From: Cyanobacterium aponinum PCC 10605
GTDB taxonomy: Bacteria > Cyanobacteriota > Cyanobacteriia > Cyanobacteriales > Cyanobacteriaceae
Length of the DNA: 64,000 nucleotides
Direction of reading: 5' to 3'
Assembly (NCBI RefSeq): GCF_000317675.1
Contig: NC_019776.1
Span: 2,790,001-2,854,000 of the forward strand
Shown: piece by piece, positions 4,556-14,680 of the stretch
Numbering within the stretch: position 1 is the first letter of the stretch
How the letters are laid out: every line of letters begins with the position of its first letter
The notes under the pieces: model-generated
Databases searched by the model: none
What the model saw: only the letters and a program-made list of their open reading frames with translations
What the model was told of the DNA's origin: nothing
Program-made: the position numbers and the translations under genes

Positions 4556-6709
4556 ATGAAATTTAAACGTAGGGATTTTTTAACATTTTTGGGAGTTAGT
4601 GTTGCTTCTACCGCCTGTAGTTCTGTTTTTAAAAATTATTCTCATGCCCAAGGAAATACTGAGCAGGAAATTTTTAAATTTGCTAATTTTAAACCTGTTC
4701 AATATCCTATTCCTTTGGAAATAAATAACCTTAATTCACAAGAACAAAAACAGTTATTTAATTCTTATCAAGTACAAGACGATTTAATTCTACCCGAAGG
4801 ATTTAGCTATGATGTGATTGCTTCTTGGGGAGATAAAGTGGGTGACTCCCGTTTTGGTTATAACAATGACTATGTTGCTTTTGTGGAAACTAATCCCAAT
4901 GAGGGTTATTTAGTGGTCAATTTTGAATATGTCAGTCCCACTCCTTGGCTACAAGGTTATGAGCAGGTGCTTCAAAAATCATTGCCTCAAGAGGTTTTAT
5001 CAGCTTTACACTCAGCAAGGGAAAATCGACAAGGATTAAATATTTTTGCTTTGCCTGATGATAATTCTGCTAAGATTCTCTTTCAAGAGTTTTTTGGGGA
5101 GTTGTTAACAGATCAAGGTTTGGGGGTTATTTCCATTCGTCGCAATGGTGATGGTAAGTGGGAGCGGACTTACTCTGAGCAAGATCGTCGTATTACAGGT
5201 ATATCAGGATGGAGAGATAATCGATATTTACAGGTAACTGGACCTGCTAAAAGTGTTTTTCTGAAAAAGAAGGGTTTGGGTTATACTGACGATAAAGGAG
5301 AGCTAATCATTGGAACTTTTGCTAATTGTGCGGGGGGTGTTTCGCCTTGGGGTACAGTATTTAGTGCTGAAGAAAATTTCCAAACACAAGTACCAGAAGT
5401 TGTAATGGCAGATGGCACATCTTTTTCTCCAGAGTCTTTACCCATCAATGGTTTTAGTGGACAGGGTAATCCCTTTGGTTTGGCGGGTAATAAGTATGGT
5501 TGGATGGTAGAAGTTGATCCTGCTAATAAAAATGACTATGGTACAAAACATACATGGTTAGGGCGTTTTCGTCATGAAGCTGTTGCCATTCGAGCTGAAG
5601 CGAATCAACCTTTAGCGGTTTACTCAGGATGCGATCGCACTGGTGGACATTTGTATAAGTTTATCTCCACAGGCACAGTTGTTGACCCCCAAGATAAGGG
5701 CAACTCGAAATTATTACAAGAGGGAATGTTATACGTAGCCAAAATGAATCCCGATGGTAGTGGCGAATGGATACCCTTAAAAGCCGACACTGCCATTAAT
5801 CCCACTGCCTTAAGCAATTTGCGAGGGGAATTACTAACCATTCCCAATCCAGATAGAGAAAAAGGAGGTATTGTCACCGTTACTAAACAAGAAGAATTAG
5901 ACCAATTTCAAGAAAAATATTCAACCCTCGGAGACTTATACATAGGAGACACCGCCGAAGAAATTCAAGGAGCGATTTTAATTGATGCTCATTTTGCTGG
6001 TAATGTCATTGGAGGTACTTGTACTGCTCGTCCTGAAGATGTGGCTTTACATCCTGTGGATCAATCTTTAGTGATTGCCTTTACCTCTGGAGCGGCAGGA
6101 AATGATGGTAGTCCAGATAAACGAGTTTTTAGCGATAAACAAGGAAATATATATGAGTATGGCTGTTTAATCCGCCTTAGAGAAAATGAAAATGACCCCT
6201 CAGCCCTTAATTTTACATGGGATGCGATCGCAGTTGGTGGTGAACCAGCATCAGGAGGTTTAGGCTTTGCGAATCCAGATAACCTTGAGTTTGACAAACA
6301 GGGAAATCTTTGGATGGTGACAGATATGCCGACAGGATTACACAATCAACCAGTGCGTCAGGGGGATAATCCTTATATTACGGGAGCATTAGGAAATAAT
6401 AGTATTTGGTATATACCCTTATCAGGAGAAAATGCAGGAAAAGCCTATCCATTTGGTATTGCACCGATGGAAACGGAAACTTGTGGTTTATGCTTCAACC
6501 AAGAACAAAATACTCTCTTTTTGGCGATTCAACATCCGGGAGAGAAAAATGGAACTAGAAGTAATATGGCAGAAGAAACCAGAGAAATAAGTATCCTTAC
6601 CACTGATGGCGAAGAATTTATCCAAACTAGAACTATTCCCAAAGGTTCAAACTGGCCTAGTTTAGATAAAAATGCTTTTCCTAAGCCTTCTTTAGTAGCG
6701 GTTTATTAA
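4556..6709 (+). CDS. phoX: PhoX-family alkaline phosphatase (DUF839), Tat-exported
   Basis: The 717-residue protein has a twin-arginine signal, KRRDFLTFLG, at residues 4-13, followed by a hydrophobic stretch ending near STACSS. It is therefore folded in the cytoplasm and exported by Tat. The body carries DUF839/PhoX landmarks: NCAGGVSPWGTVFSAEENFQ with the conserved Cys and Glu ligands, GRFRHEAVA, a TARPEDVALHP metal-binding segment and FANPDNLEFDKQGNLWMVTD. PhoX enzymes are Ca2+/Fe3+ phosphomonoesterases that release phosphate from organic esters. The segment usually read VNHEY is VNFEY here, a variation worth noting. It is monocistronic, with IS debris upstream and a dispersed palindrome 27 bp downstream. 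Confidence 0.9.
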   Translation: MKFKRRDFLTFLGVSVASTACSSVFKNYSHAQGNTEQEIFKFANFKPVQYPIPLEINNLNSQEQKQLFNSYQVQDDLILPEGFSYDVIASWGDKVGDSRFGYNNDYVAFVETNPNEGYLVVNFEYVSPTPWLQGYEQVLQKSLPQEVLSALHSARENRQGLNIFALPDDNSAKILFQEFFGELLTDQGLGVISIRRNGDGKWERTYSEQDRRITGISGWRDNRYLQVTGPAKSVFLKKKGLGYTDDKGELIIGTFANCAGGVSPWGTVFSAEENFQTQVPEVVMADGTSFSPESLPINGFSGQGNPFGLAGNKYGWMVEVDPANKNDYGTKHTWLGRFRHEAVAIRAEANQPLAVYSGCDRTGGHLYKFISTGTVVDPQDKGNSKLLQEGMLYVAKMNPDGSGEWIPLKADTAINPTALSNLRGELLTIPNPDREKGGIVTVTKQEELDQFQEKYSTLGDLYIGDTAEEIQGAILIDAHFAGNVIGGTCTARPEDVALHPVDQSLVIAFTSGAAGNDGSPDKRVFSDKQGNIYEYGCLIRLRENENDPSALNFTWDAIAVGGEPASGGLGFANPDNLEFDKQGNLWMVTDMPTGLHNQPVRQGDNPYITGALGNNSIWYIPLSGENAGKAYPFGIAPMETETCGLCFNQEQNTLFLAIQHPGEKNGTRSNMAEETREISILTTDGEEFIQTRTIPKGSNWPSLDKNAFPKPSLVAVY

Positions 6710-6735
6710 AACAGTTTCGGGAGATGAGAAGGTAG

Positions 6736-6755
6736 GGGCGAATGGCCATTCGCCC
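6736..6755. repeat. Dispersed 20-bp perfect palindrome, copy 1
   Basis: GGGCGAATGG is followed directly by its reverse complement CCATTCGCCC. Flanking bases GTAG and GTGC are also similar to the second copy at 13381-13400. Palindromes of this type are scattered through cyanobacterial genomes. Here it lies between phoX and the first COP23 gene and may act as a terminator. Confidence 0.85.
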
Positions 6756-6816
6756 GTGCAGGAGTTCTCAGGTTGAGTAAAAGTTATAATGGAAGTGTAG
6801 CTTTCCCCCGAAAACA

Positions 6817-7458
6817 ATGAAAAAGTCCTCTTTTTTTTCTAGTATAGTTACTTCAGTTGCTCTCGTATCTTGCCTATCCCCAAATACCCTTGCTCAAAGT
6901 AAAAATACTTATAGTTGCATCAACTACAAAGGCAAACCAACCACCGTTGTGGATACTTCCAGAGGAAAAATTCAATTAATAGTTTGGGAAAGCGATTACT
7001 TCCAAAATTCTGGTTGGACTCCGAACAAAAGATGTCAAGAAGTAACACAAAGATTTCAAGAATTTTCTGACAAAGGTATTCTTAAATATGTAACCACTGG
7101 GCAAATAAATTCATATCCTGTTATTTGTGTGGGCACACAAGTGCCGGGAGGCGGTTATCAATGCCAAAAAGATGGATTGCTCATAACTCTACAAAAAAAC
7201 GACAATCCGAATAAAGTTTTAGAAAACCTCTTTACCAATGCCGCTAAAGTTGGAGGCACTCCCGTTACTAGAGAGCCTACAGGAAAATATATTTTCCCCA
7301 TGTCTAATTTCATTAAGAATGCCCCAATTATGACAGAAACAGACATTGCTGATATTAAAGTGGAGGAAACAGAAGTGACAACAGAAGTTACCTCCGAGTC
7401 TAAAGCAATAAAAAGTGAACCTCCTTTAATTGAATGCTCACCCCTATTATGTGATTAA
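6817..7458 (+). CDS. Secreted COP23-domain protein 1
   Basis: The 213-residue protein starts with an export signal (MKKSSFFSSIVTSVALVSC then LAQ). LVSC at residues 16-19 could be a lipobox, otherwise cleavage follows residue 27. The COP23 domain follows, with YSCINYKGKPTTVVDTSRGK, IQLIVWESDYF, GWTPNKRCQEVTQRF and VICVG. COP23 was named for a circadian-oscillating membrane-associated protein of Cyanothece; its molecular role is unknown. After a loosely conserved linker the protein ends ECSPLLCD, a variant of the tail found on three neighbouring products. The next COP23 gene starts 28 bp downstream, so the two are probably one operon. Confidence 0.9.
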   Translation: MKKSSFFSSIVTSVALVSCLSPNTLAQSKNTYSCINYKGKPTTVVDTSRGKIQLIVWESDYFQNSGWTPNKRCQEVTQRFQEFSDKGILKYVTTGQINSYPVICVGTQVPGGGYQCQKDGLLITLQKNDNPNKVLENLFTNAAKVGGTPVTREPTGKYIFPMSNFIKNAPIMTETDIADIKVEETEVTTEVTSESKAIKSEPPLIECSPLLCD

Positions 7459-7486
7459 AACCTTATTTATCCATGAGGTAAAAACC

Positions 7487-8119
7487 ATGAAACCTCGATT
7501 TGCTCTAGTTTTTAGTTTGATATTAAGTTTGATATTTGGACAAATTATCTCTCTGATATTTGTTAACTTTGCTCAAGCAGATAGTAAAAAAAATGCTTAT
7601 AGTTGTATAGACCATGAAGGTAAACCCATGACGGTGGTTGATACCACAAGGGGAAGAATTCAATTAATTGTCTGGGAAAGTGACTATTTTAGAGCCTCCG
7701 GGTGGACTCCAGAAAAACGCTGTCAAGAAGTAAGTAAAAGATTTCAACAATTTTCTGATAATAGTACACTAAGATTTATTGCCAATGGCATGATTGGAAA
7801 ATATCAAGTAATTTGCGTATCTCCTCAATCTCCCCCTCCATCTACAAATATAGTTTGTCAAGAGCAAAACTTATTGATGACTCTTGAACCAAAGGATAAA
7901 CCTGTAGAAGTTATGAAACAATTATTTGAGGATGCAGTTAAAATCGGAGCAATGCCCATAAGAAGAGGTCAAGCAGTATTAGATTTAGACAAATATTTTG
8001 CTGTTGCCCCGTTAATGGATGCTGTTTCCCCCATTCAAAAACCTCCCTTAATACCAGAAGAAAAAAAACCGCCCCAATCAGGTACAACTATCGAATGTCC
8101 CCCTATTTTATGTGATTAA
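7487..8119 (+). CDS. Secreted COP23-domain protein 2
   Basis: The start is set at the ATG at 7487 because it has GAGGTA seven bases upstream and begins a clean signal peptide (MKPRFALVFSLILSLIFG to AQA). A start at 7430 in the same frame would overlap the previous gene and bury the signal. The 210-residue product repeats the COP23 pattern: YSCIDHEGKPMTVVDTTRG, LIVWESDYFRASGWTPEKRC and VICVSPQ. A hydrophobic LDLDKYFAVAPLM segment follows, which the third paralogue also has in the form LDLDSFLATA. It ends in a proline-rich linker and the tail ECPPILCD. It is closer to COP23-3 than to unrelated exported proteins, so this is a local gene expansion. Confidence 0.9.
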   Translation: MKPRFALVFSLILSLIFGQIISLIFVNFAQADSKKNAYSCIDHEGKPMTVVDTTRGRIQLIVWESDYFRASGWTPEKRCQEVSKRFQQFSDNSTLRFIANGMIGKYQVICVSPQSPPPSTNIVCQEQNLLMTLEPKDKPVEVMKQLFEDAVKIGAMPIRRGQAVLDLDKYFAVAPLMDAVSPIQKPPLIPEEKKPPQSGTTIECPPILCD

Positions 8120-8145
8120 TACCTCAGCTTTTCAGCAAAAATATC

Positions 8146-8214
8146 ACCTGCAACCTGATACCTGATACCTGACACCTAACCTTATTGGATATTCTGAAAC
8201 CGAACTGAGGTTAT
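8146..8214 (+). repeat. Heptamer-repeat element, five units plus constant tail
   Basis: Five tandem 7-mers (ACCTGCA, ACCTGAT twice, ACCTGAC, ACCTAAC) are followed by a constant tail that ends ACCGAACTGAGGTTA. The same layout recurs at 10893, 14612, 18401, 38492 and 45778, and inverted at 13287. It sits between COP23-2 and the kinase gene. Confidence 0.85.
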
Positions 8215-8260
8215 AGTTAATAATTAAAAATTCACTTTTTCATCAACCCCTAAATGACTT

Positions 8261-10057
8261 ATGGATAACCCTGCCGCTCAACTTCCACTAATACCTTTTC
8301 CTTACCAAGTAATCAAAAAGTTGGGTAACGGCAGTTTTGGTAAAGTATATTTAGTTATAAACACCACAAATCAACAACAATGCGTAATTAAGCAGTTACA
8401 CCCCTCTTCAGAGCAACCCAATTTCATCAAACAGGCAAGAAGACTTTTTCGCCAAGAAGCAGAGATATTAAAAAAACTAAATCATCCTCAAATTCCTAAA
8501 TTAATTGATTATTTTGAAGATAAAGGAGAATTTTATTTAGTCGAAGAGTATATCGAAGGAAAAACTCTACGTCATGAGTTACCTTCTGGAAAATGTTGGA
8601 CGGAAGTAGCGACCATTAAATTATTATTAGAGGGATTAGGAATTCTTAAGGATATTCACAATTTAGGCATTATCCACAGAGACATCAAGCCTGATAACTT
8701 TATTCGTCGTCAAGAGGATCAAAAATTAGTCTTGATTGATTTTGGGGCAGTAAAAGAGTTTAATTTAGAACAAAGTCGCCTTTTAGATCCTACCATAGCA
8801 ATGGGAACTCGTGGCTATATGCCCACAGAACAAGCGAGGGGAAAACCTAGAAAAAATAGTGATATTTATGCTTTAGGGGTTATAGCTATTCAGGCTTTGA
8901 CGGGGAAAAATCCCCTTGAATTAGAGGAGGATGAAGAAGGAGAAATTCTTTGGCGTAATTTAGTTACTGTTGATGACAAATTAGGCGAAATTATCACGAA
9001 AATGACTCGCTATCAACATAAATTGCGTTATCAGTCAGCCGATGATGTGATTAAGGATTTACACGCTTATATTTATGCAAAGCAACAGTCTTGCCCCCCT
9101 ACTCAAATTTTGGAGGAGAAAAATAAACCTTCTTCCATAGAAGATAATTATTCTAATACCTCTACCTCTAAGATAAATTCAATTTCTTCCTCAACAAATC
9201 AATCATTGAAAAATCAAGAAGACACCTCGGAAAAATTTTCTTTTAGTGATTGGTTAAAGTCTCCTTTTGGTTCAACTTTGACTACTGCTTTAACGATTGG
9301 TGTTATTGCAACGGGGGGGGTATATGTGATGAATCAACAACAAAAAGCTCAAATTGAGAAAGAAAAAGCTGATTTTTTGACCTCTTTAGATACTGCTTAT
9401 AATAATCAAAATTATTTGGAGTGTTTTGAAAAGGCAGAGGAAAGATTGCAAGATGAGAATAATCATATCTCTGCTCAAGAGTTAGGGGAATATATCGGGA
9501 AATGTCGTTTAGAAGAAGCAAAACAAAAAGCTCAATTTCTCAATTATGCGGAGGCTGTAGCAACGGCGAAACAAATTCCAACCCAGAATCAATATCATAA
9601 TCAGGCTCAAATTATGATGGAGGATTGGAGTAGGGCTATTTTTGATAAGGCAAAGCATTTATATACTGAGGAGGGAAAGCTGGAAGATGCTTTAAAGGAA
9701 ATTGATACAATTCCTGATAATCCTGTACGTCAAGCAGGTTTAATAGTTGTTAGTCAGTGGCAAGAAGAATATCGTACGAATAGTTATTTAATTAATCAGG
9801 CACAAAAAGACTTAGAATATGGTAACTGTCAAAGTGCGATCGAAACTGTGAGTAAAATTGAAGGCTCAAATTATTGGTTATTAGAAGGGAAAAAAATAGT
9901 TGATCAAGCTGAAAAATGTTTTCAGGATCAGGGTATTGAAAGTAACATTAATACTAATAATAGCACCGATAATTCTAGTAATAATCAAAATAATCAAAAT
10001 AATCAAGAACTTCCTGATAATGTAATTATTTGCCCCCCGATTTTATGTCCTGAGTAA
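8261..10057 (+). CDS. Transmembrane serine/threonine protein kinase with extracytoplasmic tail
   Basis: The 598-residue protein has a cytoplasmic kinase domain at about residues 14-275. The glycine loop GNGSFG, VIKQL with Lys44, HRDIKPDN with Asp141, DFGAVK with Asp160, and MGTRGYMPTEQ as activation segment are all present, so it should be active. A 60-residue Ser/Asn-rich linker leads to one membrane segment (about 337-357, TTALTIGVIATGGVYVMN). The remaining 240 residues are charged, helical and TPR-like, and should lie in the periplasm. They end in an Asn-rich stretch and the tail ICPPILCPE, which matches the ends of the adjacent COP23 proteins. It sits between COP23 genes 2 and 3, which suggests the exterior domain senses or joins the same envelope complex. 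Confidence 0.93.
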   Translation: MDNPAAQLPLIPFPYQVIKKLGNGSFGKVYLVINTTNQQQCVIKQLHPSSEQPNFIKQARRLFRQEAEILKKLNHPQIPKLIDYFEDKGEFYLVEEYIEGKTLRHELPSGKCWTEVATIKLLLEGLGILKDIHNLGIIHRDIKPDNFIRRQEDQKLVLIDFGAVKEFNLEQSRLLDPTIAMGTRGYMPTEQARGKPRKNSDIYALGVIAIQALTGKNPLELEEDEEGEILWRNLVTVDDKLGEIITKMTRYQHKLRYQSADDVIKDLHAYIYAKQQSCPPTQILEEKNKPSSIEDNYSNTSTSKINSISSSTNQSLKNQEDTSEKFSFSDWLKSPFGSTLTTALTIGVIATGGVYVMNQQQKAQIEKEKADFLTSLDTAYNNQNYLECFEKAEERLQDENNHISAQELGEYIGKCRLEEAKQKAQFLNYAEAVATAKQIPTQNQYHNQAQIMMEDWSRAIFDKAKHLYTEEGKLEDALKEIDTIPDNPVRQAGLIVVSQWQEEYRTNSYLINQAQKDLEYGNCQSAIETVSKIEGSNYWLLEGKKIVDQAEKCFQDQGIESNINTNNSTDNSSNNQNNQNNQELPDNVIICPPILCPE

Positions 10058-10114
10058 TTAATTAGGCTTAGGTTTAGGCTAAAAATTTCGTGAAGATAAA
10101 CACTTCTAAATATT

Positions 10115-10750
10115 ATGAAAAATCAATTTTTTATTCAATTTTTTATTTTTGGTTTATTGACTATTGCTAATGGCTTTTTTTCTCAAGATTCCTTGGCACA
10201 AACTAAAAATAGTTATAAGTGTATTCAACTCAATGGTAAACCCACAACAATCGTAGATACTGCAAGGGGAAGAATCCAACTAATAGTTTGGCAAAACGAC
10301 TTTTTCCGTGATTCTGGGTGGACTCCCCAAAAAAGATGTAATGAGGTAACAAAAAGATTTCAACAATTTTCTGACAGTGGTAGTTTAAGATATATTGCCA
10401 CTGGTACAATGAATCAACAGCCCGTTATTTGTGTGGCGGAAAAAAAATCATCAGGTTTTAAGTGTAGGGGAGACGGTTTACTTTTAACTCTTCAACCGAA
10501 AGATAATCCTAGCAAAGTGTTAACTGATTTATTCAATATGTCTGCCCGTACTTCCACTGGTGGTTTATCTCGTGGGGGAGTCTTAGATTTAGATTCTTTT
10601 TTGGCTACTGCTTCCACTATTTCCAGTGATAATAACGATAATTTACCCACATATAATAATAACTCTCCCCCTCCTACCATTATTTCTAATCCTGAAACTA
10701 ATCAAAAACCCAAAGATAATCCCTCTTGTCCACCCATTTTATGTCCCTAA
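10115..10750 (+). CDS. Secreted COP23-domain protein 3
   Basis: A 211-residue exported protein with a signal peptide ending near SLAQ at residue 29. Its COP23 domain includes YKCIQLNGKPTTIVDTARGR, LIVWQNDFF, GWTPQKRCNEV and VICVAEK. Compared with the other two paralogues it has the same spacing of four cysteines in the domain. A low-complexity Asn/Pro linker then ends in SCPPILCP. It follows the kinase gene by 57 bp on the same strand and is likely co-transcribed with it. Confidence 0.9.
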   Translation: MKNQFFIQFFIFGLLTIANGFFSQDSLAQTKNSYKCIQLNGKPTTIVDTARGRIQLIVWQNDFFRDSGWTPQKRCNEVTKRFQQFSDSGSLRYIATGTMNQQPVICVAEKKSSGFKCRGDGLLLTLQPKDNPSKVLTDLFNMSARTSTGGLSRGGVLDLDSFLATASTISSDNNDNLPTYNNNSPPPTIISNPETNQKPKDNPSCPPILCP

Positions 10751-10796
10751 TGGGTTGTAAAGGTCAAAGGTAAGAGGCAAAGGCAAACCCCTCTGT

Positions 10797-10856
10797 GTCC
10801 CCCCTTAAAAAAAACCCCCCTTTATCCCCCCTCTCGAGGGGGGAAGGCAAAAGTGT
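10797..10856. repeat. Poly-C/poly-G dispersed repeat
   Basis: The spacer holds C-runs followed by CCCCCCTC-TC-GAGGGGGG (10826-10843), a strong potential hairpin around CTCGAG. Related G-rich pieces with GGGGATAAAG or GGGGATAAGG occur at 18511-18535 and 29512-29530. Confidence 0.6.
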
Positions 10857-10892
10857 CTAATTAACTCTAACTCTAATACCCCAATACCCCAA

Positions 10893-10962
10893 CACCTGCA
10901 ACCTGACACCTGACACCTGACACCTAACCTTCTCCGATATTCTTAAACCGAACTGAGGTTAA
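10893..10962 (+). repeat. Heptamer-repeat element, five units plus constant tail
   Basis: The units are ACCTGCA, ACCTGAC three times and ACCTAAC, followed by the constant tail ending ACCGAACTGAGGTTA. It separates COP23-3 from the metacaspase-like gene. Confidence 0.88.
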
Positions 10963-11013
10963 GTTAGTGCAAAATATCAGTCAAATATTTCGTAGATTAA
11001 GGATTTATTGATC

Positions 11014-12258
11014 ATGAAAAAATTTAATTTTATTGGTAATTTCGCCATGATGATACCGACTGCACTCAGTATGGCCACACCTTATGCGATCGCATCTTGC
11101 GGATTAATATTCGGTATGAGTAATTCTGCCTTTTCTCAAGATTATCAGATTTCAATAAATGAAAAAATAAGAGAATCTTTCTCCCTTAGTCAACAAGCAT
11201 ATTTAATCAGCCAGAGACAAACATCAGAAAAGAGAGTTGCTCTAGTGATTGGTAACTCTAACTATCAACACGGTAGTAAACTGCGTAATGCGGTTAATGA
11301 TGCTAACGATGTAGCGAAAAGTCTTAGAGACTTAAATTTTGAGGTTATTCTGCTCACCAATGGTAACTTAAAATCAATGGATCAAAGTTTAGAAAGATTT
11401 TACCGAGAATTAGAGAAAGGAGCAGTCGGTTTATTTTATTATGCAGGTCATGGTATTCAAGTCAATGGGGAAAATTACTTAATTCCAGTGGATGCTCGTT
11501 TAGACAGGGAAAGCGAAGTTAACTATGAAACCTTACCTTTAGGAAAACTTTTAGCGGCAATGGAAGAAACGGATAATAATGTCAATATCGTCATTCTTGA
11601 TGCTTGTCGTGATAATCCTTTCGGTCGTAGCTGGACTCGTTCTTCTAATAATAAAGGATTAGCCGCTATTCAAAATAGTGCGACAGGTACTTTTATTGCT
11701 TATGCCACGGGGCCGGGGAATGTCGCTCAAGATGGTACAGGTAGAAATGGAACTTTTACAGAAGCCTTGCTCAAAAACCTGAAAAATCCTAATCAAAATG
11801 TGGAAGAAATATTTAAACAGGTGAGAATTGATGTGGCGAATAAAACCGATAATGCTCAAGTGCCTTGGACTACTTCTTCTTTAATTGGAGACTTCTTTTT
11901 CTCTGGTAGTCAAGAAAAACCTTCATCTAATAATAATCAAAATATCACGAGGAAAGAAGAAAATATTACCCCTCCTGTGGTGGAAGAGAAAAAACCTCAG
12001 CCCCTCAATAATGATAGTGTGGCAATTAATAATCGCTCGAACAGTCCTTTTCAGGATTTAACTGGTGCAAACCTAACCCCTCGTAAAATTTCTTTACTAC
12101 GTTCTTTTATTGCAGGATACAATTTTAAAGAAGCCCCTTGTGGAAGCGATCGCCATCAAGTTACTATCACATTGAGTAATCGGTATGTAATGTGTGCAGA
12201 AGGAAACAGTAAACATCCTTCCGGGAACTTTTCTTTAGAAATACCTTCTCTTGATTAA
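11014..12258 (+). CDS. Secreted caspase-fold (metacaspase-like, peptidase C14) protein
   Basis: An ATG at 11014 gives 414 residues; the frame could open two codons earlier at a TTG, but AAGGA upstream favours the ATG. The N-terminus is an export signal with two hydrophobic stretches (to about residue 42). The p20-like domain begins KRVALVIGNSNYQ and has both catalytic residues: His146 in FYYAGHG and Cys198 in ILDACRDNPF. The p10-like half contains GTFIAYATGPGNVA and TGRNGTFTEALLK. Bacterial orthocaspases of this type cleave after Arg or Lys. A charged linker follows, then a C-terminal module (about 345-414) with two cysteines that resembles the start of the next gene product. The position of the protease outside the membrane beside a sensor kinase is unusual. 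Confidence 0.9.
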   Translation: MKKFNFIGNFAMMIPTALSMATPYAIASCGLIFGMSNSAFSQDYQISINEKIRESFSLSQQAYLISQRQTSEKRVALVIGNSNYQHGSKLRNAVNDANDVAKSLRDLNFEVILLTNGNLKSMDQSLERFYRELEKGAVGLFYYAGHGIQVNGENYLIPVDARLDRESEVNYETLPLGKLLAAMEETDNNVNIVILDACRDNPFGRSWTRSSNNKGLAAIQNSATGTFIAYATGPGNVAQDGTGRNGTFTEALLKNLKNPNQNVEEIFKQVRIDVANKTDNAQVPWTTSSLIGDFFFSGSQEKPSSNNNQNITRKEENITPPVVEEKKPQPLNNDSVAINNRSNSPFQDLTGANLTPRKISLLRSFIAGYNFKEAPCGSDRHQVTITLSNRYVMCAEGNSKHPSGNFSLEIPSLD

Positions 12259-12554
12259 GATGGGGTTGTTGAATTAAAGTATGATGTGTCTGGGAAATGG
12301 GTTTTTGGCGGATTGGAGGTTTAGGGAGAAACTAATTCTTTTTTCATTTGTCATTTAATTTGCACCTAAAACTTGCTAAAGTTCAGATTTCCTATTCTCT
12401 AATACCAATTAGTTTTGTACCTCACCATAACGAGAATTGCTATATATATTTCAAATTCGCAATTCCATTAACTTATTTAAAGTAATAAAAATCTAGTAAT
12501 TAGTGATTAGTAATTAATATTAGTTTTTCTGCCAGTAAAAAATAAACAAGATTC

Positions 12555-13289
12555 ATGAAAATTAAACATTTACTAATAACAAATATATCTCTATTTACTC
12601 TCTTTTCTGGTCCTTTACAAGCTCAAAACTCATCCTTTCCCACTATCATTAATAATAATAATTCACCCTTTCAACAAAAACTTATAGACTGGGGTTTCTC
12701 TATTAGCAATTGCGATGGTAATGTGGTTAGTATCAGAGATTTAAACACTCAAGAAATAGCTTGTGTTGAGCCAAATCAACAAATAAGTTCAGGTAATTAT
12801 GTATATGACAGAGTAACCAATCAAATTCGCCCTGACACTAATGTTGATAGCGATACAGCTAATGTTAGTCAAACCAATACTCGTGGTGCAAGTCAAAATA
12901 TAGAAGAAGTCGTTACCGAGGGTTACGTTAATCCTAATCCTAGTAATGCAGACCCTCGTATCGCTGATGTCGTCATTGATTTTGTCGATATTTATGGCTA
13001 TAACAATTGCTTAGATGCGCTGTTATTACTATATGAAGGAAGAAATCCTGTGGGTGATAACTCTTGTTTACAAAACGTAAAAGAGGTTTTTGGTAATCAA
13101 ATTAGTCGTGATGTAATGTTAGAGTTGGTAGATATTGCCAATGTTAGGGCTACTAGCTTACTCCCCATGGAATTATATCCTGCCTATGGCATTCGTCGCC
13201 GTGTGGCCCAAAGTGTGGGTTATGTATATGAAATTGATGTGGATAATCCAGAAATGATTAGACTTGCTCAGTCTAGCGGACGTAATTAA
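12555..13289 (+). CDS. Secreted protein of unknown function, linked to the metacaspase-like gene
   Basis: The 244-residue product has a signal peptide ending at LQAQ (residue 24). Residues 35-85 (SPFQQKL, GFSIS, then C and AC.EPN...SGNY) mirror the C-terminal module of the preceding caspase-fold protein. The C-terminal half, about residues 125-244, is an unrecognised folded domain rich in Asp and hydrophobics, with a conserved-looking pair of cysteines (NNCLDAL and DNSCLQ). It lies 296 bp after the caspase gene on the same strand; the spacer between holds no further feature. No enzymatic motif is seen. Confidence 0.75.
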   Translation: MKIKHLLITNISLFTLFSGPLQAQNSSFPTIINNNNSPFQQKLIDWGFSISNCDGNVVSIRDLNTQEIACVEPNQQISSGNYVYDRVTNQIRPDTNVDSDTANVSQTNTRGASQNIEEVVTEGYVNPNPSNADPRIADVVIDFVDIYGYNNCLDALLLLYEGRNPVGDNSCLQNVKEVFGNQISRDVMLELVDIANVRATSLLPMELYPAYGIRRRVAQSVGYVYEIDVDNPEMIRLAQSSGRN

Positions 13290-13346
13290 CCTCATTTCGG
13301 CTTAAGAATATCAGATAAGGGTAGGTTGCAGGTGTCAGGGTGTTTA
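13287..13346 (-). repeat. Heptamer-repeat element, inverted and shortened copy
   Basis: Read on the minus strand it gives ACACCCTGACACCTGCAACC, then a tail with GATATTCTTAAGCCGA and AATGAGGTTAA. It overlaps the stop codon of the preceding gene by three bases. Confidence 0.8.
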
Positions 13347-13380
13347 GGGGATGGAAGGATGAGGGGAGAGGGAGAAGTAG

Positions 13381-13400
13381 GGGCGAATGGCCATTCGCCC
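13381..13400. repeat. Dispersed 20-bp perfect palindrome, copy 2
   Basis: The 20 bases are identical to 6736-6755, and the flanks GTAG on the left and GTAC on the right also match closely. The two copies bracket the COP23/kinase/metacaspase block. Confidence 0.88.
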
Positions 13401-13472
13401 GTACAGGGTTTGACGGTTTCAGGTTTTAGAAGAAAGTAATGAGTAATGAGTAACGAATAATTATCAACTACT

Positions 13473-13560: not shown

Positions 13561-14517
13561 ATGATTTATTTGGGCAAAAGAATATTGATTTCTTTACCTA
13601 CTCTATTAGCCATTAGTATTATTGTTTTTATTATTCTCGCATTAGCACCGGGAGATCCTTTAAGTGAGTTTGCTTCAAATCCAAATATAACGGCAGAGGT
13701 TAGGGAAAATATCCGTAAATCCTTTGGCTTGGATCAACCTATTTATATACGTTATATTAAATGGCTAACAGCATTTTTACAAGGAAATTTGGGCTATTCT
13801 TTTACCAGTAGAAGTCCCGTATCTGATTTAATTTGGCAACGTTTACCTAATACTTTATCTATTGTCGGTTTAGCTTATTTATTAAGTGTTATAACTGCTA
13901 TTCCTTTGGGTGTAATTTCGGCTTTGAAACGTCATTCTTTGTTTGATAAATTCAGTAATGCGATCGCACTTTTCGGTTATTCAATTCCGCCTTTTTTCAC
14001 GGGATTATTATTAATAATTATTTTTAGTGTTAAATTGCAATGGCTACCCTTTATTTATGACAGTAACTTGATAGTTAACAGTTGGGCTAGTTTCATTGCT
14101 CAAATTAAACAGTCAATTATGCCTATTATCGTCCTAACATTATATCAAACCGCCGTATTAATGCGATTCATGCGATCGAGCGTTAGAGAAGAATTAAATC
14201 ATGACTATGTACGCACCGCCTATAGTAAAGGCTTAAATCCTTATCAAGTAGTTATCAATCATGTATTGCGTAACGCCTTAATTCCCGTCATTACTTTAAT
14301 AGCTTTAGACATACCAAGTATTTTTACAGGGGCATTGGTAACAGAACAAATCTTTCGTATCCCCGGTATTGGTGCTTTGTTAATCGAATCTATTTACCGC
14401 AGTGATACTCCTGTAATTATGGCAATTACGATGATTTATGGAATTTTGATCGTCATTTTCAACTTAATTGCTGATTTAACTTATTCTTGGCTTGATCCTA
14501 GAGTGCGTTTTGATTAG
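13561..14517 (+). CDS. ABC transporter permease, dipeptide/oligopeptide/nickel type
   Basis: The 318-residue inner membrane protein has six predicted helices beginning with LGKRILISLPTLLAISIIVF. It has the DppB/OppB/NikB opening GDPL and LDQPIYIRY, the pattern EELNHDYVRTAYSKGLN and the EAA loop equivalent leading to LIPVITLIAL and FRIPGIGALLIESIYRSD. Such subunits pair with a DppC-like permease, ATPases and a binding protein; none is adjacent, which is common for scattered cyanobacterial peptide transporters. Substrate cannot be assigned. Heptamer and palindrome repeats fill the upstream spacer. Confidence 0.92.
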   Translation: MIYLGKRILISLPTLLAISIIVFIILALAPGDPLSEFASNPNITAEVRENIRKSFGLDQPIYIRYIKWLTAFLQGNLGYSFTSRSPVSDLIWQRLPNTLSIVGLAYLLSVITAIPLGVISALKRHSLFDKFSNAIALFGYSIPPFFTGLLLIIIFSVKLQWLPFIYDSNLIVNSWASFIAQIKQSIMPIIVLTLYQTAVLMRFMRSSVREELNHDYVRTAYSKGLNPYQVVINHVLRNALIPVITLIALDIPSIFTGALVTEQIFRIPGIGALLIESIYRSDTPVIMAITMIYGILIVIFNLIADLTYSWLDPRVRFD

Positions 14518-14611: not shown

Positions 14612-14680
14612 CACCTGCAACCTGACACCTGACACCTGACACCTACCCTTATTCGATATTCTCAAACCGAACTAAGGTTA
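14612..14680 (+). repeat. Heptamer-repeat element, five units plus constant tail
   Basis: ACCTGCA, ACCTGAC three times, then ACCTACC and the tail ending ACCGAACTAAGGTTA. It lies tail-to-tail between the permease and RNase genes and ends one base before the RNase stop codon. Confidence 0.88.

Follow-up and report, generated by a model that had tools for sequence, protein, structure and literature searches.

Introduction

COP23 is a circadian oscillating 23-kDa membrane protein described in Synechococcus RF-1 (Chen, 1996) and found also in UCYN-A, with a strong day/night change; it is said to be known from nitrogen fixers only (PMC6315102), and is named also in PMC10153697 and PMC11131595. Trypsin-like and caspase-like peptidases, sometimes together with kinases, are combined in the VMAP, NucA-trypsin and EACC1-caspase conflict systems, in the description of which COP23 is not mentioned (Kaur et al., 2020; PMC7159879). 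Here we analyze a stretch of 64,000 nucleotides from Cyanobacterium aponinum PCC 10605 (contig NC_019776.1, positions 2,790,001 to 2,854,000; hereafter the window), in which six consecutive + strand open reading frames (ORFs, positions 6817-13289) encode COP23-1, COP23-2, a Ser/Thr kinase, COP23-3, a C14 protease and a partner protein called UNK, in this order.

We interpret this cluster as the local form of an envelope module that is widespread in cyanobacteria, in which COP23 proteins are combined with one or two exported proteases and in many cases also with a Ser/Thr kinase, and which would work through an adaptor or docking mechanism; taken as a whole, this interpretation stands in our judgment at about even chances. 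The gene linkage by itself is highly secure, and is accompanied by COP23-protease domain fusions and by a C-terminal tail that differs between loci and is common to COP23 and the neighboring kinase. The module protease is trypsin-like in most genomes and caspase-like in the window. What is new is the gene module, apparently undescribed, as the protein families are all known except UNK; in the open-access literature no paper linking COP23 to proteases or kinases was found, subscription papers lying outside the search. The first-pass annotation of the window, made from the DNA letters, had identified the six same-strand genes correctly and had read them as a surface-sensing or cell-fate module in which the kinase reports on COP23 or protease state, an interpretation that as a whole is partly supported.

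COP23 genes are linked to protease and kinase genes

A first sample was collected with the COP23 family model alone from 60 genomes of the order and 15 of the family, and comprised 120 loci with 137 COP23 genes. A trypsin-like protease gene lies within 3 kb of 72 of these 137 genes, and a kinase gene within 1 kb of 20. As the genomes carry 1-25 trypsin-like genes each, the chance of such a neighbor per COP23 gene has an upper bound of 4.4% within 3.5 kb. The commonest gene order is COP23, a trypsin-like protease and a trypsin-like protease with TPR repeats, with the kinase alongside in many loci. Signal-like N-termini are found in 90/116 protease neighbors vs. 253/879 unrelated ORFs, and the GxSGG motif is kept in 111/116 trypsin-like neighbors. 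The second sample started from the kinase, using a profile of its ectodomain against 293 genomes, and yielded 20 loci outside the window's family: COP23 occurs within 3 kb of 13 of the 20 kinases and within 1 kb of nine, eight of these nine pairs being on the same strand. Besides the window, COP23, protease and kinase genes come together within 5 kb in 27 loci. The domains are also joined in single proteins: L041 and L042 have fusions of COP23 with a CHAT (caspase-clan) domain, in proteins of 619-638 aa adjoining kinase genes, and L043, L044 and L045 have fusions of COP23 with trypsin-like domains. Co-localization of COP23, kinase and C14 genes had been set beforehand as the test of the first-pass annotation; it holds for COP23 with kinases and for COP23 with proteases, but the protease is usually trypsin-like.

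An independent collection places COP23 on nine cyanobacterial plasmids, seven of which are predicted to be conjugative or mobilizable. Their annotated gene orders are kinase, small ORF, COP23 and two serine proteases in Microcystis aeruginosa NIES-2481; S1C protease, COP23 and serine protease in Stanieria PCC 7437; kinase, COP23 and serine protease in Cylindrospermopsis. The Nostoc ATCC 53789 plasmid has COP23 plus two serine proteases, that of N. sphaeroides a kinase and COP23, and those of Acaryochloris, Stanieria NIES-3757 and Aulosira similar annotated COP23 neighbors; on the Calothrix plasmid a trypsin-like neighbor of COP23 was found by our own search.

The COP23 family and its clades

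The three window proteins score 139, 115 and 131 bits with PF14218 (cut-off 27) and are the only COP23s of their genome. The domain occurs in 56/60 genomes of the order, with a patchy copy number of 0 to 12 per genome. A tree of the domain separates three clades, I (43 genes), II (the remaining 100) and III (32 genes, support 0.89), the linkage of which was counted within 3.5 kb, in tests that treat genes as independent and so overstate significance. Clade I has a protease neighbor in 1/43 genes and a kinase neighbor in two, and clade II is protease-linked in 82/100 genes. Clade III, part of which was picked through its kinase, is kinase-linked in 22/32 genes (9/19 once kinase-chosen loci and the window's genus are removed) and C14-linked in seven genes from two families; all three window COP23s belong to it. 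Clade I proteins (e.g., L148-L158, L273-L287) are about 250-300 aa long, mostly end in LNPxxFR or RKPxxF[RK], and are possibly the general household members of the family. The COP23 core is modeled by AlphaFold2 as a confident alpha/beta structure, and no sequence relative was found in the PDB.

COP23 and kinase share locus-specific C-terminal tails

As the first-pass annotation had noticed, the three COP23s and the kinase of the window all have the C-terminal motif C[PS]P[IL]LC, followed by one or two further residues, and this sharing is real. Tails were read from ORF ends, because DNA-only pattern scans proved too permissive, control patterns matching about as often. Among the ORFs of 260 loci, tails of the CPxxLC type form 30 distinct ends, on 15 COP23s and 15 kinases of this type; they were seen on no other protein in this set, which was not searched exhaustively. 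Other loci have tails of their own, such as PGIKW/PGSVW (L073, L074), TTPLW/TKPLW (L051), HREL/PLRDL (L323) and NYRDL/PLRDL (L327), so that the classes CPxxLC, xxW and R[DE]L can be distinguished, and a single genome (G069) carries two types, CPxxLC in L061 and PGxxW in L073.

Similarity was scored on the last five residues, comparing neighbors with other loci in 2000 shuffles. COP23 tails are much closer to those of neighboring kinases than to those of kinases at other loci (z 5.9, 0/2000 shuffles) and somewhat closer to those of neighboring proteases (z 3.7, 0/2000), with z 0.6 for unrelated neighbors and no signal in the upstream segment; the permutation and these two controls rule out composition chance as an explanation. 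When one pair per family is kept, the COP23-kinase match holds (13 families, median p 0.003). The tails of the window differ at synonymous sites, and comparison of the four genes with the sister species gave four synonymous and one non-synonymous tail-codon changes. These synonymous differences, small as their numbers are, speak against a spread of the tail through recent gene conversion. Physical partnership, which the first-pass annotation took tail and module sharing to suggest, gains statistical support as regards the COP23 and kinase tails.

The kinase and its ectodomain

That the third gene encodes a transmembrane Ser/Thr kinase is borne out by its PF00069 match, by intact catalytic motifs (GNGSFG loop, HRDIKPDN and DFG), by a hydrophobic stretch at residues ~335-357 and by a C-terminal domain with paired cysteines, C388 and C415 being invariant in the kinase alignment. 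The hydrophobic stretch is at the same position in every aligned kinase and, with a hydropathy window of 19 residues, stays below 1.6, so that a membrane helix is probable rather than certain. AlphaFold2 predicts an alpha-solenoid for the ectodomain, most of which has pLDDT >90, with the tail disordered. Among solved structures it comes closest to TPR domains (Z about 8 to 10, a level that may reflect only a common helical-repeat arrangement), several of which (FKBP38, FKBP51, HOP and Sec72) were solved with bound C-terminal peptides. Pfam gave no TPR match in the ectodomain at E up to 0.5. The TPR-like domain most likely sits outside the membrane. With the PknB/PASTA model NF033483 the kinase reaches 142 bits (cut-off 450), and the match stops at residue 367.

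The same genome encodes a second kinase with this outer domain (L255, 5931-7667; about 1655930-1657666), distant from the COP23 genes and ending in CPGPLCPE. It is probably a pseudokinase, because its G-loop, HRD and DFG motifs are missing or degenerate, and further degenerate kinases of this sort occur in the family.

The C14 protease and its partner UNK

The caspase fold and intact His/Cys dyad that had been claimed for the fifth gene product are corroborated by PF00656 and by the motifs YYAGHG (residues 144-149) and DACRDN (198-203); in the PDB it is related to MALT1 paracaspases, whose catalytic His and Cys both align with its own. With the EACC1-associated caspase model NF047832 it scores 67.4 bits (cut-off 140), and the gene directly upstream is COP23-3, not EACC1. 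TAT-like signals have been noted earlier on cyanobacterial pseudo-orthocaspases (PMC6426788), which qualifies the premise that orthocaspases are as a rule treated as intracellular. UNK, described at first sight as an unknown exported protein, indeed has no Pfam family, its export being judged from the look of the N-terminus.

Module sharing between these two proteins likewise proved real: iterated profile searches find ~45 residues common to the C-terminus of the C14 protease (358-410) and to UNK (40-82), and also to trypsin-TPR-UNK proteins. In L322, L324 and L334 the UNK domain forms the C-terminal domain of such an exported-type protein, in the order COP23, trypsin-like protease, trypsin-TPR-UNK protein, close to this kinase type. 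Because of this common module, the caspase-type protease and UNK appear to occupy the place that a trypsin-like pair has elsewhere, and they are a local variant. UNK homologs occur in 38/293 genomes of the order, many of them without COP23-, protease- or kinase-type neighbors in the 3 kb viewed.

C14 genes adjoin COP23 and this kinase type in only two lineages, the window's genus and another family (L325, L337). In L337 kinase, COP23 and C14 genes are consecutive and 50-63 bp apart, and L325 has a similar set. The C14 proteins of L325 (11724-13586) and L337 (10865-12322) end in DUF2808, not in the module of the window. A COP23-C14 pairing as general core was rejected, because at almost all loci C14 genes (mostly 1-5 per genome) show no linkage to COP23.

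Organization of the six-gene cluster

The features of the cluster are listed in Table 1. It follows a PhoX phosphatase gene (4556-6709) and precedes an oligopeptide permease gene (13561-14517). A TTG at 7430 is a less likely alternative start of COP23-2, and for the C14 protease ATG 11014 is a more likely start than 11008. Export was judged from the appearance of N-termini: the COP23s, the C14 protease and UNK look signal-peptide-like by eye, and a crude automatic signal test was passed within the window by COP23-1 and COP23-2 only.

Table 1. Coordinates of the six genes and of their domains, modules and tails in the window.
Feature	Positions	Strand	Description
COP23-1	6817..7458	+	213 aa, small, Cys-rich, exported-type; PF14218 138.8 bits; four invariant core Cys; tail ECSPLLCD
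C-terminal tail of COP23-1	7435..7455	+	CSPLLCD, from ORF end
COP23-2	7487..8119	+	210 aa; PF14218 114.5 bits; signal-like N-terminus; tail ECPPILCD
C-terminal tail of COP23-2	8096..8116	+	CPPILCD, from ORF end
Transmembrane Ser/Thr kinase	8261..10057	+	598 aa; PF00069 150.8 bits; tail ICPPILCPE
Kinase domain, putatively on cytoplasmic side	8303..9031	+	PF00069, residues 15-257
Probable transmembrane helix of kinase	9263..9331	+	Hydrophobic stretch, residues ~335-357
Kinase ectodomain, predicted TPR-like alpha-solenoid, paired Cys	9353..9955	+	AlphaFold2 model, structural matches, C388/C415
C-terminal tail of kinase	10031..10054	+	CPPILCPE, from ORF end
COP23-3	10115..10750	+	211 aa; PF14218 131.2 bits; tail SCPPILCP
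C-terminal tail of COP23-3	10727..10747	+	CPPILCP, from ORF end
Exported-type C14 (caspase/paracaspase-like) protease	11008..12258	+	PF00656 147.5 bits, residues 75-297
~45-aa module at C14 protease C-terminus	12079..12237	+	Iterated profile search
UNK, exported-type partner protein	12555..13289	+	244 aa, without Pfam family
~45-aa module copy in UNK	12672..12800	+	Iterated profile search

The intergenic gaps are, in order, 28, 141, 57, 257 and 296 bp, and promoter- or terminator-like sites are no more frequent in the cluster than in shuffled sequence; on both counts a single operon of all six genes is not shown. Given the gap sizes, and given a dispersed repeat that precedes the kinase gene and the protease gene, all six may or may not be co-transcribed. 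This 69-nt repeat (ACCTGACACCTAACCTT...ATATTCTTAAACCGAACTGAGGTTA) is found at 8145-8213, 10893-10961 and 13286-13339, two copies falling within gaps of the cluster (before the kinase and before the C14 gene) and an inverted one right after it; more cores lie at 14635, 18423, 38529 and 45802. The window contains six copies of the core, against an expectation of none. In addition, the six genes lie between two copies (6719-6777 and 13364-13422) of a 59-nt repeat that contains the palindrome GGGCGAATGGCCATTCGCCC.

Proposed mechanism and alternative explanations

In the window the COP23 genes have genes for an exported-type protease and a Ser/Thr kinase as neighbors, and the COP23s share their tail with the kinase, which agrees with the module as found elsewhere. 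In the mechanism that we propose, COP23 would regulate the exported protease or act as its adaptor, and the COP23 tail would be a docking peptide in a TPR-like groove, most simply that of the kinase's own ectodomain, for which the tails of the kinase and of the COP23s would compete. How much COP23 is present, and whether it is released or cleaved, could then alter the occupancy of the groove, upon which the cytoplasmic kinase domain would phosphorylate its targets and the cell would read the state of envelope proteolysis. We offer this docking mechanism as a tentative one, possible rather than probable. The same reserve applies to the broader suggestion of a new form of envelope signaling, which we regard as speculative: a TPR-like outer domain might read locus-specific tails and report the action of a trypsin-like, caspase-like or CHAT protease on COP23 to the cytoplasm, the tail types separating parallel circuits. 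Surface sensing, as proposed by the first-pass annotation, is a reasonable inference; its alternative of a cell-fate role is without evidence.

Several observations weigh against this proposal. With one pair per family the COP23-protease tail match is lost (22 families, median p 0.26), and because of this non-significance a tail tag on every component is not established. Genus g2 (G013, G062, G063) has a kinase that keeps the tail CPGPLCPN and a COP23 that is without this tail and located elsewhere, and in clade III the COP23 and kinase tails of L318, L319, L321 and L325 are unlike each other. The Z of about 10 obtained with the predicted ectodomain is within the range where helical repeats match by shared arrangement, and the C14 linkage rests on the two lineages named above. 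For the COP23 core, Foldseek gave no match at E <= 0.001 and VIA-align none above Z 3, a failure that does not show a new fold.

The strongest alternative holds that the tails serve as a tag for export, anchoring or maturation that a separate machine recognizes, a common address that implies no direct contact between COP23, kinase and protease. It would account for tailed kinases without a nearby COP23 (L255, L241), for non-homologous partners with one tail type in L323 (kinase PLRDL, trypsin NLRDL, COP23 HREL) and for sharing that includes the protease, as in L052 (COP23 GTAW, trypsin QTAW) and L365 (trypsin DSGW, UNK GGGW). A general tag would however be expected on other exported proteins, and COP23 and this kinase type were the sole carriers of CPxxLC seen in the 260 loci, a set not screened exhaustively; moreover, tail type varies between loci within one genome (G069), and the motif is not followed by the kind of hydrophobic or basic segment that LPXTG and PEP-CTERM signals have. 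We consider a separate tag unlikely, if worth serious attention.

An improbable reading, in our view, is that of a mobile conflict or defence system, in which kinase, proteases and an exported trigger would act against phage, rivals or plasmid competitors. The plasmids described above, the patchy copy number of COP23 and the scores of the kinase domain with PADLOC kinase models such as PD-T4-6 are consistent with it; the PADLOC matches are nevertheless confined mainly to the kinase domain and, weakly, to the caspase and trypsin domains, with none for COP23 and UNK, the proteases look exported, in contrast to the known intracellular conflict systems, and no COP23 relative was found among 50,697 phage records. 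Linkage without joint function, the genes moving together or sharing envelope-stress regulation, would fit the 257 and 296 bp spacings, the repeat before the C14 gene and plasmid carriage, but is very unlikely in view of the domain fusions, of the COP23-kinase tail match kept after thinning, of protease pairs in 22 family labels and of the lack of matching tails on unrelated neighbors at the same loci.

The proposed envelope module matters in that COP23, without an assigned function since the 1990s, is systematically paired with membrane kinases and exported-type proteases, and its role can thus be tested through enzymes that are already known. This pairing spans many cyanobacterial families and mobile plasmids. 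Should the tails turn out to act as specificity tags, a cell would have in them a simple means of keeping several envelope circuits apart.

Comparison with known systems

To the COP23 described earlier the window proteins are alike in family name; it was described without kinase or protease partners and from nitrogen fixers only, whereas the domain is present in nearly all genomes of the order sampled here. The DegS/sigma-E envelope stress response is comparable in that exposed C-terminal peptides are recognized by a receptor in the periplasm, which governs a proteolytic signal. That receptor is a PDZ domain belonging to the protease; here, differently from DegS, no PDZ match was found among the proteins scanned, and the output would be a kinase. 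With PknB/PASTA kinases the window kinase has in common a Hanks-type kinase domain, one probable membrane helix and an outer sensor domain, but it carries a TPR-like ectodomain and a C-terminal tail instead of PASTA repeats. The C14 protease resembles orthocaspases and paracaspases (MALT1 fold) in its p20 domain with a His/Cys dyad, and differs from them by its exported-type N-terminus, its extra C-terminal module and its COP23 and kinase gene neighbors. Finally, unlike the VMAP, NucA-trypsin and EACC1-caspase systems, the six genes and their two direct neighbors include no vWA, MoxR, nuclease or EACC1 gene, and the proteases of the COP23 module look exported.

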